From contig NZ_QVLS01000012.1 in NCBI RefSeq assembly GCF_003417535.1, positions 124,001 through 188,000 on the forward strand: a stretch of DNA of 64,000 bases, in the 5' to 3' direction. Numbering within the stretch: the first letter of the stretch is position 1; each line of letters opens with the position of its first letter. The translations under genes and the position numbers were made by a program. Positions 22,970-38,152 of this stretch are shown here, in pieces. Source of the DNA: Hydrogenophaga borbori. Its GTDB lineage: Bacteria > Pseudomonadota > Gammaproteobacteria > Burkholderiales > Burkholderiaceae_C. The notes beneath the pieces were generated by a model. The model saw only the letters and a program-made list of their open reading frames with translations, was not told where the DNA came from and ran no database searches.

Positions 22970-23006
22970 AAGTGCCTGATTTCTTAGGGAATCAGGCACT
23001 TTTCGC
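22970..23006 (+). terminator. Terminator after tRNA-His, inside the island
   Basis: AAGTGCCTGATT (22970-22981) pairs with AATCAGGCACTT (22990-23001), an 8-base loop and a short T-run follow. It was brought by the island and replaces the tRNA's original terminator, now at 38221. Confidence 0.82.
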
Positions 23007-23025
23007 TTTAAGTGCCGGCAGCACT

Positions 23026-23046
23026 TGCTACACGGCCTGTGACACA
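23026..23046. repeat. Left putative integrase arm site
   Basis: TGCTACACGGCCTGTGACACA. Its first 11 bases and the CTGTG-A/T-CACA part recur in inverted orientation at 38064-38086, near the other end of the island. Position between attL and the integrase suggests arm-type binding or an excisionase site. Confidence 0.6.
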
Positions 23047-23051
23047 ACCAT

Positions 23052-24791
23052 GTGAATCAGGCAATGAAAGCAATATCCGAGCACATCTATGAGCGCGGCA
23101 AGCACGCCACCAAATACGTGCGCCGCCGCATCCCCGCCGCCCTCCGGTCGGCATACCCCAGTCACCAGACGCACATCGTTCAAAGTCTCGGTACGTCGGA
23201 CCTTCGCGAGGCCAAGGCACGCGCGCATGCCGAACTCGCGCGCATCGACGCCGAATTCACCTCCAAACGTCAGAAGCTTGACCTTAGTTGTGCCTCCATG
23301 GCGGCCAAAAGGGTCAGCAAGCTTTCGGACGAGCAGTTGCGGTCGGCTGGGCGATTCTGGTCTCAGCAGGTCCTGCTGACCGACGAGAAGCGGCGAGAGC
23401 AGTGTCTGGACGACGAGGAGTTCGACGAACTCGGTGAACAGTTGACCAAACAGCGGGTCGAACTGGGGCGGTTGCTTGCGCAGGGCAAGACCCAGGACAT
23501 CTATCCCGCCATGCACGGGTTCTTGTATTTATGCGGCCTGGATTTCAACCCTGAGGGAGAGGATGCAAAGCGGGCTTGCTACATTTTTCTCCGCGCAGTC
23601 GTCGAGACCCTCGACCATCAACTCGCGCGCCAGCGAGGGGAGATTGTCGACACGGCCAAGGTCGTGCCGGCGGCCGAGCATCCGCTCTGCACGGTGGCCC
23701 CCGAGCGAGCGCCCGGGAATGCGAATGGGGCGACCTGGGATAGCGTCTTCGAAAAGTGGCGAGACCACGTCGATAACCGTCCGAAATCGACGACCATCGC
23801 GGCCCAGACGCCCTGGCGTGACCTGCGACGGTTCGCCGCGGCTCACAACACCATGTCACCCGATGCGGTCACGCCACGGTTGATGACGGATTTCGCGCAG
23901 TCTATGCGCGACCGCGAGCTGGCCGTCGACACCATCAACGAACGCATCTCGAAAATCCGCGCCATCTACAAGATTGCCGTGGGACGGCATCTGCTGGACG
24001 TCAATCCGGCGGCTGACACGCTGGGTTTCAAGGAAAACAGTGCCCAGCGACGCCGCAAACGGCGCTTGCCCTTCGATGAGGGTGACTTGAGCACAATCTT
24101 CGGGTCGGAGATTTACACAGCGCACAAACGTTCGCGAGGGCAGTCCGGCGAAGCAAGCTACTGGATACCGCTGATGATGTTCTACACCGGCGCCCGCCCC
24201 GAGGAACTGTGCGGACTGGCGTTGAGCGACCTGCGCCAGCATTCTGACGATGGCTGGTACTTCGAACTGCTTGACCGCCCGACGAACGAAGACCACGACC
24301 TGTTCGATGAAGAGGTGCCCGCAAGCCACCGTCGCACGCTCAAGAACGGCGCATCCCAACGGCGGGTCCCCGTCGCAAAGGAGCTCATCGAGCTGGGTCT
24401 GTTGCGGTATGTCGAGCACCTGCGAGCACGCAAAGAGACGGTACTTTTTCCAACGTTGGCCAAAGATTGGCACGGCAAGCTCGGCGGCGCGTTCTCGAAG
24501 TTTTTTGGGCGCGAACTGCGGGCGCTCGGCATCACCGACAGTCGCAAGGTGCTCTACTCGTTCCGGCACACAATGAAGGACATGCTGGAGAAGGCCGGTT
24601 TTAAGACGAAGTACCTCCAGCGATTCCTCGGGCACACGTCTGGGGATGGCGTTGTGACCGACGGGTACGGCTCGGACCTGCCATTTGACCTGATGTTGGA
24701 GCAGTTCAAGCGAGTCAGATTCCCGGCCATTCCGGCGCTGCCGTGGGAGCCGGGTCGCGGAGCTACTAGTCAACGGCGAAAGACGAAGTGA
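23052..24791 (+). CDS. int: Tyrosine-recombinase integrase of the island
   Basis: A 579-residue site-specific recombinase that should catalyse integration and excision at tRNA-His. The N-terminus has the RRIPAALRSAYPS / SLGTSDLREAKARAHAELA pattern of large phage-type integrases with an added DNA-binding domain; a core-binding segment lies near residues 240-330. Catalytic residues: Arg382 in YTGARPEELCGL, Arg505 in YSFRHTM, His528 in LGHTSGDG and nucleophile Tyr539. The usual box II His is Tyr here, which some family members tolerate. The start is GTG at 23052, or ATG at 23064. It reads away from the tRNA, as in most tRNA islands. Confidence 0.93.
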   Translation: MNQAMKAISEHIYERGKHATKYVRRRIPAALRSAYPSHQTHIVQSLGTSDLREAKARAHAELARIDAEFTSKRQKLDLSCASMAAKRVSKLSDEQLRSAGRFWSQQVLLTDEKRREQCLDDEEFDELGEQLTKQRVELGRLLAQGKTQDIYPAMHGFLYLCGLDFNPEGEDAKRACYIFLRAVVETLDHQLARQRGEIVDTAKVVPAAEHPLCTVAPERAPGNANGATWDSVFEKWRDHVDNRPKSTTIAAQTPWRDLRRFAAAHNTMSPDAVTPRLMTDFAQSMRDRELAVDTINERISKIRAIYKIAVGRHLLDVNPAADTLGFKENSAQRRRKRRLPFDEGDLSTIFGSEIYTAHKRSRGQSGEASYWIPLMMFYTGARPEELCGLALSDLRQHSDDGWYFELLDRPTNEDHDLFDEEVPASHRRTLKNGASQRRVPVAKELIELGLLRYVEHLRARKETVLFPTLAKDWHGKLGGAFSKFFGRELRALGITDSRKVLYSFRHTMKDMLEKAGFKTKYLQRFLGHTSGDGVVTDGYGSDLPFDLMLEQFKRVRFPAIPALPWEPGRGATSQRRKTK

Positions 24792-24905
24792 CGGCGCTTT
24801 CGCAGACCGCACCCTGCGACTTGCGCGATGTGCGCATCAACTGATGAGGCACTTTCCGGTCGTACTGCGTCGCGTCGAAGACGCTGCGCGAACGGGGCAA
24901 CCTCC

Positions 24906-25142
24906 TCAAACGATGAGTGCTTCCACGCCCTTGGACTCAAGGAGTTGCAGCAGTCGAGCGGCCGCACCGCTTGGGCGCTGACCGACGGAGGCGGATTCCC
25001 ACTTATGCACCGTCGAAGCGCTCACCCTCATGAACGAAGCAAAGACGGCCGGGCTCATCTTTGCGACTTGGGTTCTGATTCGTTGGATGTGCTCGGGGGA
25101 GTAGTGCGGCGGCTTCTCGAACAACGGTCTGGTGTGCGTCAT
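24906..25142 (-). CDS. XRE-type HTH protein (antitoxin/NadS-like)
   Basis: A 78-residue DNA-binding protein. The HTH occupies roughly residues 28-50 (AVFASFMRVSASTVHKWESA), followed by RPSGAAARLLQLLESKG, the tail typical of HigA/NadS-like antitoxins and small XRE regulators. No toxin gene precedes it, so it is either an orphan antitoxin or the island's regulator. A second, broken copy lies at 27053-27185. Confidence 0.82.
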   Translation of the reverse strand: MTHTRPLFEKPPHYSPEHIQRIRTQVAKMSPAVFASFMRVSASTVHKWESASVGQRPSGAAARLLQLLESKGVEALIV

Positions 25143-25358
25143 GTCGGTGGGTTACACAAGGTCACGAGGGCGTGCTCACCACACGGCCGAAGGGCGGGGT
25201 GTCGCATGAGGATTGTGAGGCTTCGCGCTGGTCCGTGAGCTCGGCTCCGCGCCCACCCGAAGGACACTGAGGGGTTGTGGTGGAGCCTGCCTGTTCTATG
25301 GCGCTCCCGTCTGCCGGCTACGCCACTCCCCCATATGTAGCCACACACTTGAGCCAGC

Positions 25359-26792
25359 TCAAGCGCCAGTCGATTTTTGGGTGTAACGCTTGGCGCTGGC
25401 GAGACTGATTCCGAGCGCCTGGGAAATCTGCGTGTTACTCAGTCCATCGGCTCGCAGTTGCTGAGCTGCCTGACGCTGCTGCGCAGCGTTTTCCAAGTAC
25501 TGTTCACGAGGTTGCATCCCCTGTGCGCGCCGGGCTGACCGCTGCCGCTCCGTGTTCCGCCGGGTTGCCTCGGCCTTGCTGATGATGGTCTGCATCTGTC
25601 TCTCTTCGTCGGGCGTGATGGCCAAGCGTTCAAGAAGCGTACTGTTTCTCCAGCGGTACTTCGGGGAAACCTTCATGCCATCGAACTCGACCGTCTGCCC
25701 TGCTGCGCAAGCTCGTGCGCGCGACAGCGCCGACGTGGTGGAGGAGAGCAGCTCTTCGTGCGACCAACCCGGTGCGAACTCGTCTCGCAGCGCAATGAGT
25801 TCTGGCAAGACCTCGTGCATTGGGCAGCAGTCGCCGAGGAAGCAAGCCGCGAGGAACAGGAACATGTTCCTGTGCCCGGACGGGATGCCTGCATAGGCGT
25901 GTGTTGGCCAGCGGAGCTCCTTGAGTCGTCGCAGGTCTGCGAGTCGGTCCCACGCAAGCTTGTGCCCCTGCAACTGGCGCAGGCAACCTGCCGTCGAAGG
26001 GCCACCCAGACCAGCTGCGCGCCGGGCCTTCTCAACAGCCGCTGCTGCGGTGGTGGCTGCGTCACGGTCCCCGGAGGCTGTCGCCCGAGCCAAGCGTTCC
26101 TGGACGATGTCCGCGCGTGCTCGAGGCAGCACGGTGTCCGCGAACACGTCGAAGTCATAGCCCACGATTCCTGATGGCAGCAACGCGCCGCCCAGAGTCG
26201 GCGTTCGGCACTCGTGGACGAGGCGGACTACCTTGCCTGAGCGCGAGTTTGTCGAGCCTGTGAGCCGTAGTACGCGCGCGGAGTCCATGGCCGCGAAGTC
26301 GGCCCCCAACCTTTGCAGGGCAGAGCACAGTTGAAGCTGAACGCGCTCCCAGCGTGGTAGCGCAGCGCGCGGTGCAGGAGACTCGAACAGCCACTTCGCT
26401 TGGAGCCCTCGGCCGGAACTCACCACGAGGCTTGGCGGCGGAAGGGATTGGTCGATGCATTCAACAAGTAGAAGTTGGAGCAGGTGTTCGGGTGTGTGGT
26501 TTTCGAGGTGTGCGAGCTTGTACGTGTCGAGGTCGACGTAGCACAGCGGCATTCGCCACAGATTGACCCTGCGCCGATTCGGCCTGAAGAACTCGCACTG
26601 CGACAGCCAGACGTCAGGCTGTCCGTGCCAGCGGCTCAGGTTCGATTCAAGGTCGACCAGCTTGAAGGATGCTTGCCGCGTCTTGCCGTGCTCTTTCGAG
26701 AGGACCGACACGAAGCCGCCTCTCTGTGCGTCGTGGTAGTGCAGGGGCTCGTCGTAGCCGACGTCCCCCATGAGTTGCAATGAAGTCGTCAT
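25359..26792 (-). CDS. Primase-like replication protein with C-terminal HTH
   Basis: A 477-residue protein with the three signature motifs of archaeo-eukaryotic-type (RepB-like) primases of plasmids and phages: acidic Asp87/Asp89 in CYVDLDTY, SSGRGLQAKW (residues 125-134), and the D170-x-x-RVLRL-x-GSTN segment (170-182). Middle helices may be a PriCT-like domain. The C-terminus (about 447-474) is an HTH with LSNTQISQALGISLASAKRY, perhaps for origin recognition. GGAG lies 8 bp before the ATG. It probably primes island replication. A replication initiator or a phage-satellite primase are both possible; I cannot rule out a plasmid-like Rep. Confidence 0.62.
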   Translation of the reverse strand: MTTSLQLMGDVGYDEPLHYHDAQRGGFVSVLSKEHGKTRQASFKLVDLESNLSRWHGQPDVWLSQCEFFRPNRRRVNLWRMPLCYVDLDTYKLAHLENHTPEHLLQLLLVECIDQSLPPPSLVVSSGRGLQAKWLFESPAPRAALPRWERVQLQLCSALQRLGADFAAMDSARVLRLTGSTNSRSGKVVRLVHECRTPTLGGALLPSGIVGYDFDVFADTVLPRARADIVQERLARATASGDRDAATTAAAAVEKARRAAGLGGPSTAGCLRQLQGHKLAWDRLADLRRLKELRWPTHAYAGIPSGHRNMFLFLAACFLGDCCPMHEVLPELIALRDEFAPGWSHEELLSSTTSALSRARACAAGQTVEFDGMKVSPKYRWRNSTLLERLAITPDEERQMQTIISKAEATRRNTERQRSARRAQGMQPREQYLENAAQQRQAAQQLRADGLSNTQISQALGISLASAKRYTQKSTGA

Positions 26793-26808
26793 CGCCAGGG
26801 CTCCGCAA

Positions 26809-26858
26809 GGCGGATAAATGGCGATACCTATGCGTTGCTGTAGTCATCTTTATCCGCC
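26809..26858. promoter_or_regulatory. Inverted repeat upstream of the primase gene
   Basis: GGCGGATAAA (26809-26818) and TTTATCCGCC (26849-26858) are perfect 10-bp inverted copies with 30 bp between them, beginning 17 bp before the primase start. Arms about four helical turns apart on the same face suggest an operator for a dimeric or looping repressor, or an origin-binding site. Confidence 0.6.
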
Positions 26859-27052
26859 GCGCCCCTGCCTCCCTGCCGACCAAAGCTGGAGCCAGGGGCG
26901 CATACTTTGGGCCACCCCCATGGCGGCCCCATGCCACCTATAGCGAACGGCGGTTTATTTTGCGGAGTGGAAATGTTCCAGGGTGAGAAGGGGAATCTCG
27001 TCGTCGGTGGGCATGCTACCGTTGAGCCGAGAGGGTAGTAGGGTCGTCAAAG

Positions 27053-27185
27053 GACGAGTGCTGCCACACCCTTGGATTCGACGAGCTGCAGCGGTCGGGC
27101 GGTCGCACCGCTTGGGCGCCGACCAACGGACGCTTACCACCGTCGTCACACTGACCCTGATGAGGGATGCGAAGCCGGTCAGGCT
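27053..27185 (-). pseudogene. Frameshifted second copy of the XRE HTH gene
   Basis: Reading leftwards, one frame encodes LTGFASLIRVSVTTV, matching the HTH of the gene at 24906-25142, and after a shift another frame encodes ASVGRRPSGATARPLQLVES plus KGVAALVL and a stop, matching its C-terminus. An 11-bp deletion at the turn between the two removes the HKWE segment and breaks the frame. No intact N-terminus is present. It is therefore a decayed duplicate, not a functional gene. Confidence 0.8.
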
Positions 27186-27799
27186 CAGCAGTCTTTTATT
27201 CCTGGCTGCGGTCAACGGGCTATGAAGGTGGCCGGCAGAATGGCACTCCCTGTTGAGAGACCGCTGGGCGCGCTTGTACAAATGGCCCGGCTACGCAATT
27301 TTGTGGGAAGAGAGGGCTCAACACACCCGCGGCCGACCTTTTGCGGACCAGCGGGTCTCATGGTGCAGACCTGGGAGTGACCAGTTCAGTTTGAGGAGGA
27401 GAAGCGGGAAGTGCGAGTCCGAATAGCGTGGCTGCGCGTGGCGTTTGACAGCACCATCGCGCCTCAAAGCATACGGCCGGCTCTCGGCGCCAACCGCCGC
27501 CTCTTTGTGCAAGGCCCTGCGCATTGAGGGTAAGCAGAACCTCGTCTCGCTCCAACCCTACCAGGGTCCAGTCGAAGCTCACCCGAAGGATAGATTTGAA
27601 GCCGAAAACGGAAAAGACGTGCCGACTGTGACCATCAGCTTCGGTTTCGTAACTCCTGGCTCATGTTCATCTAAACTCGTGCATTTGACGGAGCGAGCGC
27701 GCCTCTGCTGGAGGGATAACGGACGTGAAGAAACACGGCGCCTAAACAGCACATAAGGTGGCCGCAACGGTGCGGCTTTGCCGTCTTACGCGCGCGTGT
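27186..27799. other. Intergenic stretch before the restriction-modification operon
   Basis: About 610 bp without a gene I can support. It has several short open frames on both strands with no family resemblance. A small hairpin GCCGCA-ACGG-TGCGGC followed by TTT (27761-27779) lies just before the methyltransferase start and could be an attenuator or the end of an upstream transcript. A TTGACA hexamer at about 27449 could be a promoter element, but no good -10 was convincing. Confidence 0.5.
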
Positions 27800-29461
27800 A
27801 TGAATTTCAAAGAGAACGAGACCGAAGACAAGCTCCGTGGCGGCTACTACACGCCGCCTGATGTCGCCCGTTTCCTGTCGCGGTGGGTGCTCTGCGCCCA
27901 GCCCGAAAGCATCCTCGAACCAAGCTGCGGGGACGGTGCGTTCTTCCGTGCGCTAAATGGCCTGAGCACCTCCAAGCTGGCGGTGACTGGCGTGGAGCGA
28001 CTTGCTGGCGAGGCGGCGAAGGCGCGGAAAGCAGCAACTGCATTGAAGTTGCGCTCGGCACAGGTCGTACGGGCGGACTTCCTGCAATGGGCCCACGAGC
28101 GGCTTGACGCCGGGGCGTCTTTCGACGCAGTAACCGGCAATCCACCATACATCCGCTACCAGTACCTGGACGAAGAGGACCAGCGGCTGTCAGAGCAGCT
28201 CTTTGCGCGCTTCTCCCTGGCCTTCACGAAGCACACTAACGCCTGGGTGCCGTTCGTGATTGCTTGTGTCGCGCTCCTTTCTCCCGGCGGGCGCCTCGCA
28301 ATGGTCATTCCGTCGGAGCTGATGCACGTCCTGCACGCAGGCTCGTTACGCAAGTTCCTTCTCGAGCAGTCGCGACGGGTGCTGATGGTCGACCCAAACG
28401 AACTTCTATTCGAAGCAGCCCTGCAGGGAACTGTGCTCCTAATGGTCGAAAAGAAGGCGACTTCTTCTGACCAGTCGGAGGGCGTCGCCATCCACGCGGC
28501 CCCGGACAACTCGTTTTTGAACGGTGACCCGGAACAGCTGTTTCGAACAGCAAAGTACGTAAGCGGCGGCGTTCTGAACGGAAAGTGGATGAAGGTGCTG
28601 CTCGAGCCGGCGGAGCTGGCGGTTTTCGAGAAGGCCGAGGCGCTGCCCTCTGTCAAGCGATTCTGCGACGTTGCGACGGTCGACGTCGGTATCGTCACTG
28701 GCGCGAACAAGTTCTTCCTGGTCGACGACAACACCGTCGCTCAGTACGGCCTCGAGAAGTTCGTAAGGCCGATGTTCGGCCGCAGTGAGCACTGCCCCGG
28801 CGTGGTCTACGACCAAAGGGTACATGAGGCAAATCGCCAGCGTGGGCTCCCTACAAACTTCTTCTCCATCGCGAAGGACGCAAACGTCGCGCGATTGCCA
28901 AAGCGAGTTCGCGAATATATCCAACTCGGCGAGTCGCAGAAGCTGCATACCCGCTACAAGTGCCGCGTTCGGAGCCCCTGGTTCAGCGTGCCGTCGGTTT
29001 ACGCTACCCCGATTGGGCTTCTTAAACGCTCTCACAACTATCCGCGTCTAATCTTAAACCCGCTGGGCGCGTACACGACGGACACGGCCTACCGCATAAC
29101 GCCGCTGCCAGATGGACCGGCGGCCGGGAAGCTGGTGTACTGCTTCATAAACAGTCTCACAGCCTTGACTGCGGAGCTTGAGGGACGTCACTACGGCGGC
29201 GGCGTCCTTGAACTCGTTCCCAGCGAAATTGAAAAACTGCTTGTTCCACTTCCGGCGGTGCGACCCAACCTGGCGAAGCTTGATGAAGCTGTTCGGGCAG
29301 GAACCTGCCCGCTACAGCTCCTCAAAACGCAAGACGACAAGGTGCTTACGGCTGCAGGCCTCACCCAAGATGAGGCTGAACTGCTGCGTCACGCACTCAT
29401 TCGGATTCGCAGTCGCCGACATCGACTCCTAGGCGAGGTGGCTGTGAGGGACGGCGAGTGA
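27800..29461 (+). CDS. Adenine-specific DNA methyltransferase, Eco57I type
   Basis: A 553-residue N6-adenine methyltransferase. Motif X/I segments GGYYTPPDVARFL and LEPSCGDGAF (residues 39-47) bind S-adenosylmethionine, and NPPY at 114-117 is the catalytic motif IV. A TaqI-like target-recognition region follows. The frame is open to 27758, but the Met at 27800 (MNFKENETED) matches the family start. The next gene begins within its stop codon (GTGA overlap), so the two are coupled. By size and pairing it corresponds to the separate methyltransferase of Eco57I-like systems, which protects the host site on the strand the fused enzyme does not. Confidence 0.88.
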   Translation: MNFKENETEDKLRGGYYTPPDVARFLSRWVLCAQPESILEPSCGDGAFFRALNGLSTSKLAVTGVERLAGEAAKARKAATALKLRSAQVVRADFLQWAHERLDAGASFDAVTGNPPYIRYQYLDEEDQRLSEQLFARFSLAFTKHTNAWVPFVIACVALLSPGGRLAMVIPSELMHVLHAGSLRKFLLEQSRRVLMVDPNELLFEAALQGTVLLMVEKKATSSDQSEGVAIHAAPDNSFLNGDPEQLFRTAKYVSGGVLNGKWMKVLLEPAELAVFEKAEALPSVKRFCDVATVDVGIVTGANKFFLVDDNTVAQYGLEKFVRPMFGRSEHCPGVVYDQRVHEANRQRGLPTNFFSIAKDANVARLPKRVREYIQLGESQKLHTRYKCRVRSPWFSVPSVYATPIGLLKRSHNYPRLILNPLGAYTTDTAYRITPLPDGPAAGKLVYCFINSLTALTAELEGRHYGGGVLELVPSEIEKLLVPLPAVRPNLAKLDEAVRAGTCPLQLLKTQDDKVLTAAGLTQDEAELLRHALIRIRSRRHRLLGEVAVRDGE

Positions 29462-32439
29462 CGACGCCGGCCCGGCTCCTTGACCTCGTGGCGCGATTTG
29501 CTGCCGACGAGACAAAGCTCATGGCATCAGCTTCCGGCTATCAAGAGACGGAGGCACGGGTCGAGTACATCGACCCATTCCTTGAGCTCCTGGGTTGGGA
29601 TATGGCGAATGCCCAAGGACTACCCAACAACCTCAAGGACGTTCTGCGGGAAGAGTCGCAGGAAGGCGATGGTGGCCGGCCAGACTATACGTTCCGCATC
29701 GCATCGGCCAAGAAGTTCTTCGTAGAGGCTAAGAAGCCCTCTATCGATATAACAACCAACAAGACGGCAGCCTTCCAGGCTCGTAGCTACGGGTACACGG
29801 TGGGACTGCCCGTGTCCATACTAACGAACTTCCGGACGCTTCGAATCTACGATTCACGACTGGAACCCAAGTCCACCGACGACGCAGACGTGGGACTTCT
29901 GGACAGCATCAGCTATGCGGAACTCCCTGCTCGCTTCAATGACTTGGTCGCCCGCTTTGGCCGGACCGCTGTAGCGAACGGCTCAATCGACAGTTTCTAC
30001 GGGAGCACAACCGACGGGACTCTCGCCGTAAGCGCGAAGTTTCTGGCGCGCATCAACGGCTGGCGCGTCCGCCTCGCGAACGAGCTCCATGGGCGGTATC
30101 CCGGCCTGACGGTTAACGAACTTAGCGACTTGGCTCAGAAGGTGGTCAACCGCATCATCTTCTTGCGCATGTGCGAAGACCGCGGCATCGAGGTGCGCGA
30201 GACTCTGCGGAAAGTCGCGGGGAAGAGGAGCGTCATTGAGCTGCGGACGTTCTTCAAAAAGCTGGATGACCGGTATAACACCGGGCTCTTTGACGTTGCC
30301 GAAGACCGGCTGCAGGACCAGTACGAACTCAATGCGACGTTGTTCCACGACTTCGTTGAGGAAGTCTATTCGCCTGCGTCGCCCTACAACTTTGCCGTAC
30401 TGGACGCGGACTTTTTGGGGCAGGTGTATGAGCACTTTCTGGCCAGGCGTCTCGAGCTTCTCGACGACGGAAGCATTTGCCTGGTACAGAAGCCCGCCTA
30501 CGAAGACCGAGAGATTGTCACCACTCCGCAGCCGCTGGTCGAGGAAGTCATCCAGCGCGCATTCGACGCCCGGTTTGCAGCCGCGCCGGTGTCGACCTTT
30601 GAGGAGCTCTGCGCCGTCCGAGTCCTGGACGTCGCCATTGGCTCTGGCCGATTCCTGTTGCATGCCCTGGATAAGCTGGCCAACACCGCCATCAGTCTGC
30701 TGCTCACGGGGAACCCCAAGGACAAGCGAATCTACAAAGCCTCGGCGAATGAATTCAGACTGAGGTTCGAGGCAAAGCGGCAGTTGCTGGAGAAGTGCCT
30801 ATTCGGGATAGATGTTGATTTCAACGCGGTGGAAGTCGCCAAGTTTAGCTTGATGGTGAAGCTCCTGGAGGACGAAACGGCAGAGACGCTTCCTGCTGAA
30901 AAGCGAATCCTTCCTGACTTGAATGGAAATGTTGTTTGGGGCAACACGGTGGTGGGGACGGATTTCGTTGGACCGCCTGCTGCGCGCGAGGAGACGGCGC
31001 CCATTGACTGGGAGGACGAAGGGCTCCCGTCCGAGTTCGACGTTGTCATCGGCAACCCGCCGTACGTGACAACCGATGACATGAGGACGGCGAATCGCAG
31101 GGAGTTTGACTACTACAAAGCGAAGTACACCAGCTGCCACAAACAATTCGACAAGTACTTCGTGTTCATCGAGCGGGCACTTCGTGCACTGGCGCCAGCG
31201 GGCACCGTTGGTCTGCTGGTACCGAACAAGTGGCTCACCATCGAATCGGCGAGCAAGTTGCGCAAGCTCATGGCCGACAAAATGGCCGTGCGTGAGGTTT
31301 TGGACTTCGGCAATGAGTCGCTGTTCGCAGGTAAGTCAGCGTACGTCTGCATCCTGATACTGCAGCCTGGCGTAGCCGAGTTCTGCTATCGCAACATCCA
31401 CAAGCAGGCCGAGTTCGAACTTGACCCCGCAGGCAAGGGGTACGTCCAACCGGGTGCCGTCTTGAGCGCACTCGGAGAGTCTGCATGGGTTCTGCCCGGG
31501 ACGCTGGAGGAGCACACGGTGCTCTCCATGCTGTACGCCAGCGGCCGCAAGCTAGGCGACCTTGTCGAAATAAAGAACGGGGTTCAGACAAGCAAGAATA
31601 GCGTGTTTGTCATCTCAAACTACACGGACACCGGGCGCACGGTCCTTTTCCAAAAGGAGGGTGCCCAGTGGGAGCTTGAGAAAGCGCTGACACGCCCGTA
31701 CGTGGCTGACTCGGGGCAAGTGAAGTCCTTTGGCGAGATTCAGGCCGACTCCCTAGTCGTCTTTCCTTACGCCGTGGGCCCTAGCGGCACGCCCCAGGTC
31801 ATGGCGCCGGCCTACCTAGAGAAGAACTTCCCCCTAGGCTGGGCTTACTTGCGGCACTACCGTGCCACCTTGGAAAAGCGCGACGTGTCTCCGCCACCAC
31901 CAGCTGGGGTTTTCTATGCGTTCGGTCGCCACCAATCGCTGGAGACAGTCTTCACCCGTCCGAAAATCATCTACTCGGTTAACCAGACCGGTGACAAGTA
32001 CGCGTTCGACACGGTCGGAGTCGCGGTGGCGTCCGGCGGCACCGCAGGCGAGGTCATGGTGCTAAACCCTCGCGACGGCTACTCTCTTGAATTCGTCATG
32101 GGCCTGCTGAATCAGCGTGTTATTGAGTACTTCCTGCGCAAACGGGGAAGCCCGTTCCGAGGCGGGTACTACAGCAGGGGAAGTGCGGTTCTGGCGGACG
32201 TTCCTGTCCCTGCACTTGATTTGGCCGGGAATGCCGCTCATGCGGCCGCTCACTCTGCCATCGTCCAGGACGTCCGCGACATCATGGCGTTGAAGGCGTC
32301 GTTGGCCCGCGCAACTGGGCGCGCCGTTATACAACTGCAGCGCCGGCTCCATGCAGCGGTGACCTCGCTTGAACAACGGTTTGACGCTCTTTGGGGCTTC
32401 ACCGGCCAAGTCGAACTGATTCGCCTCCCTGGCGAATAG
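29458..32439 (+). CDS. Type IIG restriction endonuclease-methyltransferase fusion (Eco57I-like)
   Basis: A 993-residue single-chain restriction-modification enzyme. The N-terminus holds a PD-(D/E)xK nuclease (Pro75-Asp76 in RPDYTF, then Glu90-Ala-Lys92 in VEAKK). The central methyltransferase has motif I LDVAIGSGRF (390-399) and NPPY at 533-536. The C-terminal third is a TaqI-C-like specificity region with RGSPFRGGYYSRGS. The architecture and about 1000-residue length are those of Eco57I, with a companion methyltransferase of matching size directly upstream. It should cut unmodified invading DNA some distance from its site. Recognition sequence cannot be predicted here. No frameshift is seen, so it appears intact. 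Confidence 0.88.
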   Translation: MTTPARLLDLVARFAADETKLMASASGYQETEARVEYIDPFLELLGWDMANAQGLPNNLKDVLREESQEGDGGRPDYTFRIASAKKFFVEAKKPSIDITTNKTAAFQARSYGYTVGLPVSILTNFRTLRIYDSRLEPKSTDDADVGLLDSISYAELPARFNDLVARFGRTAVANGSIDSFYGSTTDGTLAVSAKFLARINGWRVRLANELHGRYPGLTVNELSDLAQKVVNRIIFLRMCEDRGIEVRETLRKVAGKRSVIELRTFFKKLDDRYNTGLFDVAEDRLQDQYELNATLFHDFVEEVYSPASPYNFAVLDADFLGQVYEHFLARRLELLDDGSICLVQKPAYEDREIVTTPQPLVEEVIQRAFDARFAAAPVSTFEELCAVRVLDVAIGSGRFLLHALDKLANTAISLLLTGNPKDKRIYKASANEFRLRFEAKRQLLEKCLFGIDVDFNAVEVAKFSLMVKLLEDETAETLPAEKRILPDLNGNVVWGNTVVGTDFVGPPAAREETAPIDWEDEGLPSEFDVVIGNPPYVTTDDMRTANRREFDYYKAKYTSCHKQFDKYFVFIERALRALAPAGTVGLLVPNKWLTIESASKLRKLMADKMAVREVLDFGNESLFAGKSAYVCILILQPGVAEFCYRNIHKQAEFELDPAGKGYVQPGAVLSALGESAWVLPGTLEEHTVLSMLYASGRKLGDLVEIKNGVQTSKNSVFVISNYTDTGRTVLFQKEGAQWELEKALTRPYVADSGQVKSFGEIQADSLVVFPYAVGPSGTPQVMAPAYLEKNFPLGWAYLRHYRATLEKRDVSPPPPAGVFYAFGRHQSLETVFTRPKIIYSVNQTGDKYAFDTVGVAVASGGTAGEVMVLNPRDGYSLEFVMGLLNQRVIEYFLRKRGSPFRGGYYSRGSAVLADVPVPALDLAGNAAHAAAHSAIVQDVRDIMALKASLARATGRAVIQLQRRLHAAVTSLEQRFDALWGFTGQVELIRLPGE

Positions 32440-32664
32440 GCCTGCCGCGTACTCGAGTTGCTCGCGACAGGTTGGCTGAGGCAGGGCGCGACCCCGCCGC
32501 CGACGAGCGCTGGACGAGGTCGAAGACCACGTCCTAGTGTGGGAGGCAGTTTTGAACTCAAAATTGAGCCGCCGTTGGGCGTGGCATGTGGGACGAACAT
32601 GCTGTGGTTTCGTGGCGTCGTCAAAATCAGCAGCGATGGGAACAGGCATCTACATGGGCGCCTA

Positions 32665-33216
32665 TCACGAGGTTTTGGTGCTCGACGCTGAGCTACTCTC
32701 TCGAGGTGTCTCACCCTGCCTTTCGAGCCGTCGCTGCTTAACGAAGCCTTGCTTCTGCCCCGCGGCTTGGACCGCTTCGAAGGCGATACGAACGGCCTTG
32801 TACTGAACCTTGAGTTCGCCCGTGGATTCGCCCACTTCCGACGGCACGCTTTCAATTGCCTGGGCCAGAGCAGAGAGCGCGTCGGTGGCGCACGTCCATA
32901 GGCTCTGCGCACGGTCCTGTGTCCGTTCCTGCGCACGAAGCTCATCGGCGAGCTGTTCGCGTAGCGCGAGCCTGCGCTTCGGTCCCTGGGACGTTCCGTG
33001 CAACGCGAGCCAGGCACGGATGAGCTCGTAGTCGGCGCACCCTAGTTGCTCACCTGCTTTGAGCTGAACCTCCTCGTGGAGATAGTCGGGGTCGGCATTC
33101 GCGGATACGGTCCCGACGTAGGTCGTCACGCTGCGCTTGGCTGTCTTGCAGTAGCGATAGCGGACCAGTTGAGCGCTGCGGCGGTCCTTGTCGGCTTTGA
33201 TGCGAAGGGTGGGCAT
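32665..33216 (-). CDS. Uncharacterised island protein with helical C-terminus
   Basis: A 183-residue protein from the Met at 33216 (MPTLRIKADKDRRSAQL); the frame is open to 33318. The N-terminal half is basic with a KTAKRSVTTYVGT segment; the rest is Glu/Gln/Arg-rich and predicted helical (RLALREQLADELRAQERTQD), probably coiled coil, ending in a polar tail. No named family recognised. It lies 46 bp after the unknown gene at 33263 on the same strand and is likely in its operon. Confidence 0.6.
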   Translation of the reverse strand: MPTLRIKADKDRRSAQLVRYRYCKTAKRSVTTYVGTVSANADPDYLHEEVQLKAGEQLGCADYELIRAWLALHGTSQGPKRRLALREQLADELRAQERTQDRAQSLWTCATDALSALAQAIESVPSEVGESTGELKVQYKAVRIAFEAVQAAGQKQGFVKQRRLERQGETPRESSSASSTKTS

Positions 33217-33262
33217 GTGTAGAACCAATGGGTTGTCGTTGTCGGGGGGTGACGTGCGGCTC

Positions 33263-34180
33263 TCACTCGTCTTGGGTCGAGGTGCACAAGCTGCGCAGGG
33301 AAGCTGGAGGCGCGTCATAGACTTTCATCCGCACCATCAAGGGCAGTTGCTGCGTCAGGGTCACCTTGAGGCTGGGGAGCTGCCCAGCGGCATCGCCGTA
33401 GCGCTCCGCCATGCCAGGATGCAGATGAAGCCAGGAATCTCGTCGACGCGCCCATTGCTTTCGGGCGAAGCGGTGCAGCTCAAGCACTTGATTGCGAACG
33501 CCGCTGAACAGGGGGCGGTGACGTTGAGCCGCCAGCAGGCCTCGAAGACCCCAGGCTGAAGCGCCCTCGGTGCCGAAGGCCAGTCGTGCGCATTCCTCTT
33601 CGACCGCGGCTTGCAAGGCTGTCACGGCATCCCCGCGCAGCTTCCACGTCCAAGTCGAAGTCTGGGAGGGCTTCTCATGCGCAGCTCCGCGTTCAGGGCT
33701 CTGCGGCTCTCCGACGACGCCCGAGTCGCCGTCCTTGCATTTGTAGGGAACCAGAGGCTTCGTCGCGTACATGAGCACGTAGTCGTCGACTACCACGTGT
33801 CCTGCTTTGCTGTCCGCGTGACGAGCAACCTGCGCGTCGGGGCTCACCGGGTCGGCCAGTCCACCTTTGCCCGACGTTGAGACGAGCCACCATTGCACGT
33901 TGTCGCCGACTGCCGGCCTGACCAGCAACTGAACGCACGCCAGTCCCCGCTTGCGGTCGTAGGACCGCTGGCGGGCATTGCGAGTGAGCGGGTAGCGCTT
34001 GCTCATCTTCTCGGCGAAAACCGCGAGCTTGTCTTTGCGCACCGTGCCACCGCACCAGTAGCGGTACCGCTCGCGGCCCACGAGGAGCTGAAGCAGTTGC
34101 ATCAATGCGGTCTGCGACCTCGGGACGGGGAGGTCCAGAACGGAGAGGGGCTTGAAAGCGAGTGTTTTGTCTTTGGGCAT
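33263..34180 (-). CDS. Uncharacterised island protein behind a palindromic operator
   Basis: About 305 residues from the ATG at 34180 (MPKDKTLAFKPLSVLDLPVP). The frame is open to 34507, but the upstream part is Arg/Pro/Gly-rich translation of palindromic DNA, so I reject it. The body has mixed aromatic and basic segments (GRERYRYWCGG, DNVQWWLVSTSGKGG, KAGHVVVDDYVLMY) and a helical C-terminus with HRFARKQWARRRDSWLHLHP. I recognise no family. A nucleic-acid-binding role is only a guess from basic content. The 26-bp palindrome at 34215 lies 35 bp upstream of the chosen start. Confidence 0.6.
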   Translation of the reverse strand: MPKDKTLAFKPLSVLDLPVPRSQTALMQLLQLLVGRERYRYWCGGTVRKDKLAVFAEKMSKRYPLTRNARQRSYDRKRGLACVQLLVRPAVGDNVQWWLVSTSGKGGLADPVSPDAQVARHADSKAGHVVVDDYVLMYATKPLVPYKCKDGDSGVVGEPQSPERGAAHEKPSQTSTWTWKLRGDAVTALQAAVEEECARLAFGTEGASAWGLRGLLAAQRHRPLFSGVRNQVLELHRFARKQWARRRDSWLHLHPGMAERYGDAAGQLPSLKVTLTQQLPLMVRMKVYDAPPASLRSLCTSTQDE

Positions 34181-34214
34181 GCGACGTATAGAGACGCCGC
34201 TCCAGTCGATGCGG

Positions 34215-34240
34215 TCTGTTGACACGGACGTGTCAACAGA
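34215..34240. promoter_or_regulatory. 26-bp palindrome, likely operator with a -35-like core
   Basis: TCTGTTGACACG and CGTGTCAACAGA are perfect 12-bp arms around GA. Each arm contains TTGACA, a consensus -35 hexamer, one reading each way. It lies directly upstream of the leftward unknown gene (33263-34180). A repressor or plasmid-type partition or origin protein would be the expected ligand. Confidence 0.7.
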
Positions 34241-34253
34241 CAATGAGCCCATT

Positions 34254-34300
34254 ACTACCGGGCCCCCGTCGGCCGATACGGCCGACGGGGGCCCGGTAGT
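34254..34300. repeat. Perfect 22-bp inverted repeat (cruciform)
   Basis: Two exactly complementary 22-base arms (34254-34275, 34279-34300) with the 3-base loop ATA; arms begin ACTACCGGGCCCCCGTCGG. No T-run follows on either strand, so it is not an ordinary terminator. It sits 13 bp from the palindrome at 34215. Confidence 0.9.
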
Positions 34301-34775
34301 GCGATGGCTCGCGGTTGAGCCATTGCGCGGTCCCCGACCACGGGGGCCGCCGCTTTGCCGCGGCATACGGCGGCAAAGCGAGCTGTCGACCGCGCGTGGA
34401 GCGCGGTTGGGGCGGCTCGACGTGGGCGGCATACGGCGCAGTCGGTGCCGCCTGTGCCTCGCGCCGCCCGGCCGTCTGCAGCGGCGTCCGCGCGGCATGC
34501 CGCTCACGCGGAGGCGGCAGGGTGGCCGGTCAGGGCCCCGACCCCGGCCGAAGTGCGTCGCTAGACGATGTAGGACTACTGTGATGCATCACCACATCGC
34601 ACAAGGTCAGCGGCACGCCAATGCTGCTTCGCAAACGTTCATCGTCTTGTGAGCAACGTCGGCGCCACCGACCTTGCTCATGTCTTATCAGTTCCTTCCG
34701 GCGTTCAGCGATTTACCACCGCTGCCGCAGCGCGTGATGCGTCCCAAAAAGGCGCCCGTCACGTGTCGGAAGGGG
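34301..34775. other. Hairpin-rich non-coding region
   Basis: About 475 bp of GC-rich DNA without a credible gene. It holds CGCTTTGCCGC / GCGGCAAAGCG (11-bp arms at 34351-34361 and 34370-34380), an ACCGCGC/GCGCGGT pair near 34390-34410, a direct repeat GCGGCATACGGCG (near 34360 and 34428), and the perfect palindrome GTGATGCATCAC at 34581-34592. This looks like an origin, a recombination region or the leader of the RNA candidate that follows. The promoter for that RNA should lie here; I see no clear -35/-10 pair. Confidence 0.6.
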
Positions 34776-35927
34776 GGTGGGGAGTAATCCCGAGGGGCTC
34801 AGGCCTCTCGGAGTAATCCCCCACCTCTACTTCATCGAGCCGGCGTGAAAGCGCCGGAGCAGCCTGGCACTGACCTGCCAGATGAATCAGTGCGATTCGG
34901 AAACGGACGGTGCGCGGTAACAAGCGCACCAGGGGCAGAAATGCCTGTGACCATTGGATTCATCACCCAATGCGAGCTCCTGATTTGTTGAATGCGGTAT
35001 GACGGGGATGCGCTTTGCATCGTCGTTGAAGTCCGCCGTCGGCGCGCTACCTGTGACCCTGGAAAGGCACAGATGCGCGACGAAAAGCCCCCACGTAGAC
35101 AGGCAGGGCAGCTGCGAGGCCACAAGGACATCAGTCCTTGGGTCGAAGCCTGCAGGGCCGGACATGAAGTCGAGAAGGAATCGACGGAGGAGTCTGGCAC
35201 GGGAGCAGAGGATGAACAGGGTCGCGCCTGGAAGTCCTTTGCCTCGCCGAGAGCAAAAGCGTGTAAGTGCCGGTGACGGCATGGGGAGAGTAAGAACCAG
35301 CTAGGGCCTGAAGTGCCTGGAATTCCTGGAAATGAACTGAGAACACAGCCTCGAGTAACCATCCGCTTAATGGGTTCGGGATGGGGAAAACGGGAGATGC
35401 GCCCGAAAGCTGTGCAGTTCGTGAGGGACTGGTGGTCTGCTCGTCAAACTCAACGGGTCTAACGAAGACGAAATGGCCGGCGGTCCGCGGAAATTGGTAC
35501 CCGCGGAAACCAACGGCTATGAGACAACTGCTCACAACGAAGGTCGGGCCGGCAGCAATGCTGGGACAGTCCCGAGATGTCACCTGAGTGTGCGGTTGAG
35601 CGGCCGGCCCCCTGGCGGGGTGCCGAGTCGGAACAGAACTGATGGGATGTGATGAACGAGAGCCCGGGTGGTACCGGGCTCGAGAGGAACCGATGGCTGT
35701 GGCGGCCATCGACCGAACCTGTTCATGCCTGCTAGACACCCGGCGCGGTTGGCGCTGCGCTGGGTGATGGCATGGGCAGGTGGACGAAACCAGGGGAGGC
35801 ACCTTGGTGAATCGTCTGTGGGGATAGAGGAAAGCGCATGCGGCTTGCTGCATGCAACGAGGCTCGCGCCTCGCCTTTATTCTTGATTCGGGAGCCGGCG
35901 GTCTAACCGCCGCCGGCTCTTCTTTCA
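34776..35927 (+). ncRNA. Candidate giant structured non-coding RNA (about 1.15 kb)
   Basis: No reading frame in this stretch resembles a protein, yet it folds almost continuously into local hairpins. Examples: a 5' hairpin with outer stem 34776-34782/34819-34825, inner stem 34790-34797/34804-34811 and a symmetric internal loop of AGTAATC opposite AGTAATC; CCGGCGT-GAAA-GCGCCGG (34840-34857); TGGCA/TGCCA (34865-34880); GGTGCGC/GCGCACC (34909-34930); GGCA-GAAA-TGCC (34934-34945); CATTGG/CCAATG (34952-34972); CAAGGAC-ATCA-GTCCTTG (35123-35140); TGCCG-GTGA-CGGCA (35268-35281); GAGCCCGG/CCGGGCTC (35660-35681); CGATGGC/GCCATCG (35691-35711); CGAGGC-TCGC-GCCTCG (35858-35873). Three GNRA tetraloops occur in the + orientation, and an intrinsic terminator ends it on +. 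Size and setting recall giant phage/island RNAs such as GOLLD and ROOL, but I could not match it to a known class. 5' end uncertain. Confidence 0.6.
35892..35926 (+). terminator. Terminator at the 3' end of the RNA candidate
   Basis: GAGCCGGCGG (35892-35901) pairs with CCGCCGGCTC (35910-35919), 8-base loop, followed by TTCTTT. It fixes the strand of the upstream RNA as +. Confidence 0.85.
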
Positions 35928-35960
35928 GGACTGGAGGGAATCGCGGTCAACGCCCGAAGG

Positions 35961-35990
35961 GGCCCCACCAAAAGGTGGGGCCTTTGGTCG
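35961..35990 (+). terminator. Second, back-up terminator
   Basis: GGCCCCACC-AAAA-GGTGGGGCC (35961-35982) followed by TTT, 40 bp beyond the first. Tandem terminators imply strong transcription through the RNA candidate. Confidence 0.8.
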
Positions 35991-36061
35991 CTTTTGCGGA
36001 AGAAAGAGGGCCAATCGCTGTCTTAGCCACCTGCGGGCCAGAAATGTGCCGGCTTCCATAG

Positions 36062-36094
36062 TTATAAGACCTGACAATAATTTTTTATAAGACC
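36062..36094. repeat. Direct repeat TTATAAGACC x2 in an AT-rich island
   Basis: TTATAAGACC at 36062-36071 and 36085-36094, 23 bp apart, flanking an AT-rich segment (AATAATTTTTT). It is the most AT-rich spot in the neighbourhood. Iteron-like sites, a melting region of an origin, or tandem promoter elements are possible. Confidence 0.5.
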
Positions 36095-36147
36095 CATCGT
36101 CCGTCGAGAGAGCGACGTGCGAACCGACAGGAGGGGCCTCTCGCGCT

Positions 36148-36194
36148 GCGGCGCCGGAGCTCGCACATGACGCTGGTGCGTGCTCCGGCGCCGC
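36148..36194. repeat. 47-bp near-perfect hairpin
   Basis: GCGGCGCCGGAGC (36148-36160) and GCTCCGGCGCCGC (36182-36194) are perfect 13-bp arms; inside, after one T-T mismatch, CGCAC pairs with GTGCG, leaving a 9-base loop. No T-run, so not a simple terminator. It has the same total length as the cruciform at 34254. Confidence 0.85.
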
Positions 36195-36214
36195 TGGCCG
36201 TCCGCCAAAGAAAT

Positions 36215-36236
36215 AAGGCGCCCGTAAAGGCGCCTC
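36215..36236 (-). terminator. Terminator of the leftward unknown gene
   Basis: AGGCGCC (36216-36222) and GGCGCCT (36229-36235); on the minus strand the stem is followed by TATTTCTTT. It lies 35 bp past the stop of the gene at 36271. Confidence 0.75.
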
Positions 36237-36270
36237 TCGAATCAAGCCAAGCCAAGGCTCGGCATATCAA

Positions 36271-36864
36271 TCAGTGGCTGTCGTCGGCGACCATCTGGGC
36301 AATGTCGGGGACGACGAGGCCAACATGGGCTTCCGTGACCTGAAACGCTGGCAGGCAGCTCTCAATTGCCAGAGGCTCAAGCAGGGCTGCACATTGGAAC
36401 TCCAGAGCACCTGCAAGTTCGACCCTGCGCAAGGGGGAAGCTTGCGCAACCACCCGCCGCAGCTCGGCGGGGTCGGGGATGTCACAGCGCGCGACGAATT
36501 GCGCAGTTTGCCTGAGCTCTTCGATTTCCAGCAGCCAGGTGAGCTCGCCCGCGGCAATGAGGTGCTCCAGCCAGGCATGCGTAGTCCTGTCCAGCAGCGG
36601 AACCGCGGTGCGCAGTTGAAGCCCGTCGGACTGGAGCGTTGCGACCGCCATGCAGCCGCCGCATGGCAAGGGATAGATGTTGAAACGACGCGCGATATAC
36701 GCGGTTCGGTCCTCGAAGCGCTGCACGACGGCATCGGGCAACGCTGCGTGGAACATGTACGGGGGCAAGCTCGGGCGCTGCTTGAGTCCGGCTGCCTCCG
36801 TTTGGGACTGCTGAGGGGTCAGAATCCGCGCCAGGTGAAGACGCTGGCTGAGGGTGGCGTGCAC
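36271..36864 (-). CDS. Uncharacterised island protein
   Basis: About 197 residues from a GTG at 36864, chosen because AGAAAGGA lies 7-8 bp upstream; another in-frame GTG is at 36897. No signal or membrane segment. It has a CGGCMAVATL segment and a long helical C-terminal half (DPAELRRVVAQASPLRRVEL). I do not recognise a family. It has its own terminator and sits downstream of the unknown gene at 36951, a likely two-gene operon. Confidence 0.6.
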   Translation of the reverse strand: MHATLSQRLHLARILTPQQSQTEAAGLKQRPSLPPYMFHAALPDAVVQRFEDRTAYIARRFNIYPLPCGGCMAVATLQSDGLQLRTAVPLLDRTTHAWLEHLIAAGELTWLLEIEELRQTAQFVARCDIPDPAELRRVVAQASPLRRVELAGALEFQCAALLEPLAIESCLPAFQVTEAHVGLVVPDIAQMVADDSH

Positions 36865-36950
36865 AAGTAAATCCTTTCTATCTGTAGTGGCCTGCACTGC
36901 GTGTAGCTACGGCGTGCAGACCGCCGTAGAGCAAGCGCACCCCCGCGCCG

Positions 36951-37580
36951 TCAGTTGTGCAGCGCCAAGAACCTGGCCATCTCGTGCGGGTAGACGGCAT
37001 CCGGCACCCCCTTGACCATGGGCTGAGGCTGCAGGCACCCGTGCGCCCAGTAGTCCGCTTGCAGCGCTTCCGGAAGGTCCGAGACGCGGCAGTAGGAGCG
37101 CTGCGCCTTGACGTGGGCCGGCGGCATGGAAGTCTTGGCCGTCGCGAACGCCGGCTCCCGCGGGCGTTGCAGCATGAGCATGGCGAGTTGCCACGCCGTC
37201 ACGGCACGGCGGCCCAGGGGTTCCCATTCGCCAGACTCGTCGTGCATGTCTTCATAGACGCGCCAAGCTGTGTGGGCAACAAGCACGCGGGAGCCTCTGC
37301 GCACCGAAACCTGAGCGGTACCCATCGACTTGCGGACGTCCAGCCGCGGGCTGCTGTCTCGCGCGAGCGTCGTTGCAAGGCAGTGCACGACAACCTGCGG
37401 AACGGTCAGTTCCCATGTGAAAGGCATCTCGCAGGTGGACGTGACGGAGGGCTCGCCGTTGCCAAGGGCAAGCTCGGTGGCAAGGCGCGGTGCGTGGGTT
37501 GTTCCGACGTTGCGAATGGACCCGGTGCGCGTGACGCTCCGGCGCATCTCGTCCGTCAGTTGAAGTTTGAGGTTGAGCAT
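36951..37580 (-). CDS. Uncharacterised island protein
   Basis: A 209-residue protein from the ATG at 37580 (MLNLKLQLTDEMRRSV). Mixed strand/helix composition, with WRVYEDMHDESGEWEPLGRRAVTAWQLAML in the middle region (two segments read together) and a C-terminus rich in aromatic residues (ALQADYWAHGCLQPQPM). No transmembrane segment and no known motif. It is divergent from the KfrA-N-like gene at 37698, with a 117-bp gap that must hold both promoters. Confidence 0.55.
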   Translation of the reverse strand: MLNLKLQLTDEMRRSVTRTGSIRNVGTTHAPRLATELALGNGEPSVTSTCEMPFTWELTVPQVVVHCLATTLARDSSPRLDVRKSMGTAQVSVRRGSRVLVAHTAWRVYEDMHDESGEWEPLGRRAVTAWQLAMLMLQRPREPAFATAKTSMPPAHVKAQRSYCRVSDLPEALQADYWAHGCLQPQPMVKGVPDAVYPHEMARFLALHN

Positions 37581-37697
37581 CGGCCGGCGATGGTCCGTGC
37601 TTCGACCGGTGGGCGCAACTGCTTTCGATTACGAAATTCCCGGGCGCCCGGCCGACAGGCGATTGCTACACGCGGTGAGGTCGACATCAACGACCGC

Positions 37698-37949
37698 ATG
37701 AGGCAATCGATGGAAGAGAAAGGCGCGCCACCACGACGGGGGCGCAAAGGTATTACGCGCGAGGACGTTCGGCGGGCTTGCGAGGCGCTGAATGCTCAAG
37801 GGCGTCAAATAGGCCCCACCAACGTGCGACTGGAACTGGGTAGAGGCAGCTACGGGACCATCGTCCGGATTCTTCGCGAACTCGGTTCCGTAGGCGCCGG
37901 CAAGCGCCGCAGTCGCACGGCGCTCCCGCTTGCTGCCGAGCCGTTCTGA
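37698..37949 (+). CDS. Small KfrA-N-domain DNA-binding protein
   Basis: An 83-residue basic protein carrying the KfrA N-terminal DNA-binding domain (GITREDVRRACEALNAQG, then IGPTNVRLELGRGSYGTIVRILREL), the HTH found in plasmid KfrA partition-associated proteins. The long coiled coil of full KfrA is absent, so it is a domain-only version. The frame is open far upstream, but ATG at 37698 starts the recognisable part. It is the last gene before attR and could control excision or maintenance. Confidence 0.8.
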   Translation: MRQSMEEKGAPPRRGRKGITREDVRRACEALNAQGRQIGPTNVRLELGRGSYGTIVRILRELGSVGAGKRRSRTALPLAAEPF

Positions 37950-37962
37950 CTATTTTGTTCAC

Positions 37963-37991
37963 CGCGACCCTCATTTCGAGGGTCGCGTTTT
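37963..37991 (+). terminator. Terminator after the KfrA-N-like gene
   Basis: CGCGACCCTC-ATTTC-GAGGGTCGCG (37963-37987) followed by TTTT, 14 bp after the stop codon. Confidence 0.9.
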
Positions 37992-38063
37992 GCGCATGTT
38001 CAAGCGGAGGCTGTCTTCGGCGCACCCACGCTATCGACAAAGGCCTCTGCGCTGTTACACTGG

Positions 38064-38086
38064 CTGTGACACAGAGCCGTGTAGCA
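38064..38086. repeat. Right putative integrase arm site
   Basis: On the minus strand it reads TGCTACACGGCT then CTGTGTCACAG, the inverted counterpart of 23026-23046. It lies 50 bp inside attR. Confidence 0.6.
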
Positions 38087-38135
38087 GGATGCGACTCGCC
38101 TTGGAGCGCGGAGCGAATTTTTGTGGCCGGTGGTC

Positions 38136-38152
38136 TCCCATCAGCCACCCCA
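38136..38152. repeat. attR: right copy of the 17-bp island repeat
   Basis: TCCCATCAGCCACCCCA, identical to the end of tRNA-His at 22933. Only this tRNA tail is present, so no second tRNA is made. Confidence 0.92.

Follow-up and report, generated by a model that had tools for sequence, protein, structure and literature searches.

Comparative evidence for a giant structured RNA family with a linked protein partner and a probable diverged member in an integrated element of Hydrogenophaga borbori

ROOL and GOLLD are giant, ornate RNAs of mobile elements whose functions are unknown, and no protein that binds ROOL is known, according to the available part of PMC12286853; the same text names OapA among the protein partners of the large RNA OLE. 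Type IV secretion systems of the MOBless class have no known relaxase nearby, and the class was explained mostly by protein secretion in the accessible sections of PMC3158045. The RNA family described here resembles ROOL and GOLLD in size, ornateness and residence on mobile elements, OLE in having a protein partner, and the MOBless systems in occurring with type IV secretion genes but no recognised relaxase. It differs from ROOL and GOLLD, which are borne by phages and prophages, in having a dedicated protein gene, in matching no Rfam model, and in that its partner protein (searched as the L099 member) matched none of 50,697 phage records. It differs from OLE likewise in the missing Rfam match, and also in a partner that belongs to no Pfam family and whose gene is usually divergent from the RNA, on plasmids and integrated elements. 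It differs from the MOBless class in that a specific RNA-protein candidate is available on plasmids. A kilobase-scale RNA with a protein of its own was found in three proteobacterial classes, the well-studied plasmid pMtBL included, with no family in Rfam 15. In the authors' view, comparison of sequences establishes a new family of giant RNAs together with a protein partner that is closely linked to it. This family comes with a partner and a positional hint; the cassette is a specific candidate that could answer part of the question posed by relaxase-less type IV secretion (PMC3158045, in its accessible sections), and RNA and protein together are possibly part of a hitherto unrecognised mode of transfer of such elements between cells.

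The window, that is, the whole stretch of DNA analysed, comprised 64,000 nt of Hydrogenophaga borbori (assembly GCF_003417535.1, contig NZ_QVLS01000012.1, positions 124,001-188,000 of the forward strand). The initial annotation had placed a candidate giant structured non-coding RNA in an island by tRNA-His, and this location was confirmed by an integrase gene beside the tRNA and by a repeat of the tRNA end. The features of the element are as follows (window positions).

22874-22949: tRNA-His
22950..38152: integrated element with the RNA-protein cassette, about 15.2 kb long, delimited by tRNA-His and the 17-bp repeat
23052..24791, + strand: tyrosine recombinase (integrase) adjoining tRNA-His (NCBIfam XerD, E 1e-7, below the curated cut-off)
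25359..26792, - strand: replication-protein-like gene (phrog_9432 replication protein, E 5.9e-16)
27758..32439, + strand: type II methyltransferase and IIG restriction enzyme-methyltransferase, cargo (PADLOC MTase_II, E 6e-177; REase_MTase_IIG, E 3e-232)
32665..33318, - strand: gene of a 217-aa protein without family, its start overlapping the end of the partner gene
33263..34180, - strand: partner protein gene ("o33 family", 305 aa), divergent from the RNA
34215-34240: inverted repeat with 12-bp arms and a two-base centre, between partner gene and RNA
34244-34311: long inverted repeat, between partner gene and RNA
34721..35927, + strand: conserved body of the predicted giant structured RNA (R2 hit, homologues, fold z -7.5)
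34721..34915, + strand: 5' domain of the RNA with the conserved CGGAAACGG hairpin at 34898-34906 (model R2)
35098..35409, + strand: central core of the RNA with TGAACAGGGTCGCGCCTGGAAG (35213) and AGGGCCTGAAGTGCCTG (35303) (alignment A4)
35663..35678, + strand: hairpin CCCGGGTGGTACCGGG of the 3' domain of the RNA
35858-35873 and 35892-35919, + strand: two tandem terminator-like hairpins (own scan script)
38136-38152: 17-bp copy of the 3' end of tRNA-His

Three element proteins (32665-33318, 36271-36897 and 36951-37580, all on the - strand) were without a convincing family in Pfam, PADLOC, PHROGs and NCBIfam.

The dense hairpin structure that had been noticed over about 1.15 kb was borne out by folding: the minimum free energy of 34770-35935 (+) was -552 kcal/mol (z = -7.5, 60 dinucleotide shuffles), its minus strand gave z = -5.8 under the same shuffling, and three coding stretches used as controls gave +0.1, -0.5 and -3.4. 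Among the stretches tested the strongest fold (z -9.5) was that of 34208-34770, which includes both inverted repeats. The three hairpins with GNRA loops described earlier in + orientation were located at 34840 (GAAA), 34898 (GAAA) and 35268 (GUGA, read as GTGA in the DNA). The two tandem terminators on + were also present by the scan script; a terminator tool placed its sites at 35858-35873 and 35958-35985, and terminator-like sites on both strands numbered 7 versus 1.6 in shuffles. As a counterpart to the CCCGGGTGGTACCGGG hairpin of the 3' domain, a GGGTGGT-type hairpin was seen by eye in L097-L100. The start at 34776 given in the initial annotation proved too late by about 55 bases or more, as the 5' domain was placed from 34721 onward by R2; according to this model the window RNA probably begins at or before 34721. 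The interval 34721..35927 is accordingly to be read as the conserved body, and the start of the predicted transcript itself may differ. The longest open frames over the RNA measured 101 aa in sense and 240 aa in antisense (35131-35853). The lengths of gaps between homologues are mostly not divisible by three (divisible lengths: 16/72 in alignment A4, 101/370 in A7 and 31/236 in A8, counted over ordered sequence pairs), and these frames are therefore not conserved ones, in agreement with the earlier statement that no protein-like frame is present.

A DNA search of 60 genomes (the window's own and relatives) returned the window alone. A blastn search of 399 genomes of the order with the RNA of the window gave a match (E no higher than 0.1) in 143 of them, nearly all of these being chance matches, the recurrent one (query 955-1006) falling in long open frames. 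From the best 19 loci besides the window, L005, L008 and L013 were kept; the match of L006 covered 60 bases at the 3' end. The weak noncoding matches in three other genomes of the order proved homologous over hundreds of bases. The same RNA query found nothing by blastn among plasmid and phage records, and the plasmids were reached through the partner protein only. A pattern scan of a species-genome collection gave 10 stretches, of which four were full-length homologues, three of these already known; pattern scans of viral contigs (3 and 54 stretches) gave none above 16 bits among the matches listed, in a scoring in which true members reach 270-400 bits. Partner-protein searches of viral contigs detected no relative. 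A short match to the core motif was noted in a 65.8 kb contig of the viral collection that is without the partner protein (L122:2976-3015), in which R1 found no match. The window clade thus numbered five sequences, from the window, Vogesella urethralis and three MAGs; three of the five are closely related.

With a profile (A3) of four partner proteins, the window and four loci in three genomes were retrieved from 321 genomes of the class, and each of the four loci had a noncoding region at the position and in the orientation that had been predicted; motifs seen by eye and weak profile matches in these loci were later upheld by alignment. In the search of 398 genomes of the phylum, the RNA was present in G1031 together with a partner gene bearing one stop; G1032 (E 5e-4) was dropped after tblastn had given no support. 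By tblastn against plasmids, the Vogesella protein found 1 record, and two newer proteins found 14 and subsequently 27 plasmids. The upstream 2 kb of 14 plasmids and the earlier regions made up 24 sequences, and 22 of these were joined into one family by blastn. The family extends over alpha-, beta- and gammaproteobacteria and includes plasmids (pMtBL and E. coli plasmids among them) as well as genomic copies.

Compensatory changes along helices, the generic mark of a large structured bacterial non-coding RNA, were pronounced in these alignments. Two-sided change was found in 27 of 67 pairs of the core in the five window-clade sequences (A4), where shuffles averaged 8.5, none of 500 reached 27, and slid controls gave 1-8. 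The plasmid-clade alignment (14 sequences) contained two well-conserved blocks, with two-sided change in 29/44 pairs of the core (93.8% of cells paired) and in 14/26 pairs of the 5' domain (97.0% of cells paired). The covariation scores of A4, A7 and A8 were reached by 0/500 shuffles. Since substitutions in the homologues follow the stems and no reading frame is common to them, two grounds on which the RNA could have been rejected fell away. GU cells outnumbered AC cells (123 to 10; 43 to 0), which points to an RNA of the + strand, a contrast that is partly built in because the folding program permits GU and bars AC. That the conserved structure acts as folded single-stranded DNA of a transfer origin and not as RNA would suit its place by a coupling-protein gene, the lack of a sigma-70-like promoter in 34150-36100, and the result of the scan script that only 8 of 27 regions (the window among them) have a terminator candidate past base 1000; the GNRA loops and the strand-specific GU pairs, three of which are UG or GU in 14/14 sequences, make this very improbable.

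Two RNA models, R1 and R2 (the latter covering the 5' domain), were built from 14 training RNAs, all from outside the window clade, and were run on 29 loci and then on 8 more. R2 matched the window at 34721-34915 (+) with E 0.002 in 455 kb, or 0.00029 within the window, and the rest of the clade with E 6.5e-6 (Vogesella), 0.0015 (L022), 0.0036 (L021) and 0.0053 (L030), in each case at the expected place and on the expected strand. A second R2 match within the window lay at 53060 (E 0.0075). When R2 was run over the whole genome of the window, the window locus was absent from the result, presumably lost at first look, and the best match lay elsewhere (17.8 bits, E 0.36). R1 recognised Vogesella (E 1e-9), which is joined to the window RNA by a match of 62 bits; the window was not recognised by R1, and three things accordingly tie it to the plasmid family: the R2 match, the link by way of Vogesella, and the partner protein.

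At gathering thresholds the window held only two tRNAs according to Rfam 15. With the threshold relaxed to E 10, only short, chance-like matches (E 2.3 or worse) fell inside the RNA, and one further match (E 0.79) started at its very end. The comparison proposed in the initial annotation was completed without a match: the GOLLD, ROOL, OLE and HEARO models found nothing in the window (gathering), the RNA region (E up to 10), 10 relative loci (gathering) or L107 (E up to 1), and the group I and II intron models nothing in the window, the RNA region, the 10 relative loci or L107. No description of the RNA-protein family appeared in search listings of the open-licence literature. The likeness to GOLLD and ROOL proposed earlier thus stood as to size, GNRA loops and mobile-element setting, and failed in that neither Rfam model matched. 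The claim of a new giant structured non-coding RNA in the island is supported by covariation, the lack of a shared frame and the lack of an Rfam model, and the window almost certainly carries a diverged representative of a family of large structured RNAs that is recognised by none of the Rfam 15 models. A ribozyme or retroelement, a catalytic or selfish element moving with its protein, could likewise be large and intricate, scattered in distribution and present as two copies in one genome (L097, L098); with no intron model matching and a partner that is not of a nuclease, reverse transcriptase or transposase family, it is considered extremely unlikely.

The partner protein and the plasmid spread had been missed in the initial annotation. 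A relative of the 33263-34180 gene adjoins all window-clade RNAs on the opposite strand (by tblastn for Vogesella, by alignment for the others). A profile of 17 members from outside this clade recovered the window protein with E 1.4e-30, and leave-out profiles recovered those of Vogesella (1.1e-32), L021 (3.3e-26) and L030 (2.8e-24), the best shuffled protein having E 2.5; the partner gene of L022 is broken, and the full profile matched two pieces of it. The partner had no significant match in Pfam, PADLOC, PHROGs or NCBIfam; in Pfam no convincing match, relaxase domains included, was obtained with 21 members, and a profile search of the PDB gave nothing (best E 1.1). The invariant residues of the 21 members are K, W, R and Q, and one tyrosine is kept in at least 90%. 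No acidic, histidine or tyrosine residue is invariant, for which reason the partner is unlike a classical relaxase; it probably binds nucleic acid rather than acting as a catalyst.

Of 28 loci with the partner gene, 25 have the RNA next to it (by R1 or R2, with E no higher than 0.01), a count in which 14 loci trained the models and 11 of the 14 others match, with L106 and L115 being near copies of training members. The three exceptions were L108 and L117, Acetobacteraceae plasmids with a longer protein and no detectable RNA, and L126, in which neither model matched and the partner gene is annotated only as a 138-aa fragment. In the 321 class genomes, the protein profile and R1 returned the same four loci in three genomes; these loci belonged to the training set of R1, and the protein search adds the window, which R1 misses. 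As R1 found these four loci and nothing else, no class genome was seen to have the RNA without the protein. The usual arrangement is divergent, and at least three gene arrangements occur over the three classes, pMtBL having the RNA and the partner gene on the same strand. In Pandoraea pPO70-4 the RNA is split by an IS256 copy. Two RNA copies were noted in Thiothrix pTunz1 (L112; 17360-17757 and 32757-33148), with a recombinase and a Tn3 transposase in the expected place of the partner gene at the first copy. RNA and protein very probably form one unit, and it may be inferred that the RNA is made and binds its partner. An RNA-only homo-oligomer with the neighbouring protein as regulator or passenger is suggested by the features shared with ROOL and GOLLD, both of which build RNA-only cages (PMC12286853, in its available part); because the protein stays beside the RNA through these classes and arrangements, such an oligomer is decidedly unlikely.

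The following mechanism is proposed on grounds of gene position. The folded RNA (about 1.2-1.4 kb) and the divergently encoded protein would function as a ribonucleoprotein; together they make up one cassette of plasmids and integrated elements. Both would come together on or close to the transfer origin, where they would make the DNA ready for a type IV coupling protein, either the element's own or that of a helper element, so that the cassette would do the job done elsewhere by relaxase and oriT. This whole explanation, a ribonucleoprotein cassette as the DNA-processing (mobilization) module of its element, is given chances slightly short of even; the mobilization role as such, suggested by position, is put forward tentatively. 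A stronger version, in which giant RNA and small RNA-binding protein have replaced the relaxase of conjugative and mobilizable elements and the ribonucleoprotein itself starts DNA transfer as an RNA-based relaxosome, is rather unlikely.

All 27 plasmids found with the partner protein were labelled "non-mobilizable" by typing software, and ten of them come from E. coli and have cassettes that closely resemble one another; in comparison, 143 of 1369 plasmids (10%) with a related coupling protein and 120 of 650 (18%) with a related TrfA were so typed. The relaxase families PF03432, PF13814, PF08751 and PF03389, taken to cover MOBP, MOBF, MOBQ and Replic_Relax, matched in 0/17 plasmids, an absence that is weak evidence because the same profiles miss the annotated relaxase of RP1-1. 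The coupling protein PF12696 was found in 5/17 plasmids, four of them related Burkholderiales plasmids, and in all five its gene is the next annotated gene beyond the RNA (in one case with an IS inside the RNA). VirB4 (PF03135) was found in 4/17, and some cassette plasmids have type IV secretion genes without a recognised relaxase. This applies to pSCU-171-2, the one of the ten E. coli plasmids that was viewed, which carries genes of VirB4, 8, 9 and 10 and of a T4SS-family ATPase and no annotated relaxase; its coupling-protein relative lies directly behind the partner gene and not beyond the RNA. The 2-kb cassette region of this plasmid was present at least partly in 21 of 5426 E. coli genomes, always on plasmids, and over at least 80% of its length in 15 E. 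coli genomes. Genomic copies in L098 and L100 adjoin an integrase, as in the window, and a T2SSE-family ATPase gene lies next to the partner gene in the contig of L099. Against mobilization, 12/17 plasmids are without PF12696, the partner is unlike a classical relaxase, the plasmids L108 and L117 have the protein with no detectable RNA, and the gene arrangements in the E. coli plasmid and pMtBL differ.

Maintenance of the element, in which the cassette would stabilise its plasmid through copy control, partition, addiction or replication priming, would fit its presence on very small plasmids (4.1, 4.2, 5.5 and 8.0 kb) and the behaviour of pMtBL, of which the whole plasmid, cassette included, is fully stable and an origin-only vector is lost (accessible text of PMC6848147). 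The authors of that text, however, ascribe the stability to ParAB, and a replication initiator is annotated in 13 of 18 plasmid records, though not in pMtBL (four records, L114, L115, L116 and L118, were viewed in part). Furthermore, pMtBL replicates from 1918-2759 alone, and almost the whole plasmid is transcribed (available part of PMC10033558); its RNA match (3116-3511) lies outside this interval, and the RNA, from 3116 onward, is therefore not the replication origin. Maintenance is considered somewhat improbable.

A defence or counter-defence role, in which the ribonucleoprotein protects the host or the incoming element, is called to mind by restriction-modification genes near the cassette in the window and in Vogesella (hsdM), a CRISPR array in L097, genes of DUF262, HEPN-type and methyltransferase proteins in pPT65, and a SLATT protein in an Azotobacter plasmid. 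These neighbours vary between loci, as cargo genes do, and none of three partner proteins scanned matched in PADLOC, so that defence is judged quite unlikely. The CRISPR array of L097 is long (1566-6791), is broken by an ISL3-type transposase gene and ends near the 3' side of the RNA, with cas1 close to it.

The mobilization reading is also to be compared with the plasmids RP1-1 and those of Vibrio, Bermanella and Eleftheria, which have a similar order of a divergent small gene, about 1 kb of noncoding DNA and a gene for a related coupling protein. The noncoding stretch is about 1.02-1.11 kb long in these four, and the divergent gene encodes 252-290 aa; it is annotated as relaxase in RP1-1 (with two small ORFs in between), has a weak Replic_Relax match in Eleftheria (E 1.6e-5, below the cut-off), and is hypothetical in Vibrio and Bermanella. 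Their divergent protein differs from the partner, to which it is unrelated by profile (E 0.069 or worse), and R1 and R2 had no match in the gaps of L127-L130 (best 16.2 bits, E 0.013, inside a gene). Common hairpins with GCGTCCAGC-like motifs were seen by eye in L127:3943-5007 (Eleftheria), L128:3827-4938 (Vibrio), L129:4963-5980 (RP1-1) and L130:3893-4941 (Bermanella), and the noncoding stretches of L127-L130 are possibly another structured element of conjugative plasmids. An RNA of the RsmZ/PrrB type was detected on the 10.4 kb Azotobacter plasmid pAcX50a (L107:1282-1425, - strand; 61.2 bits, cut-off 44).
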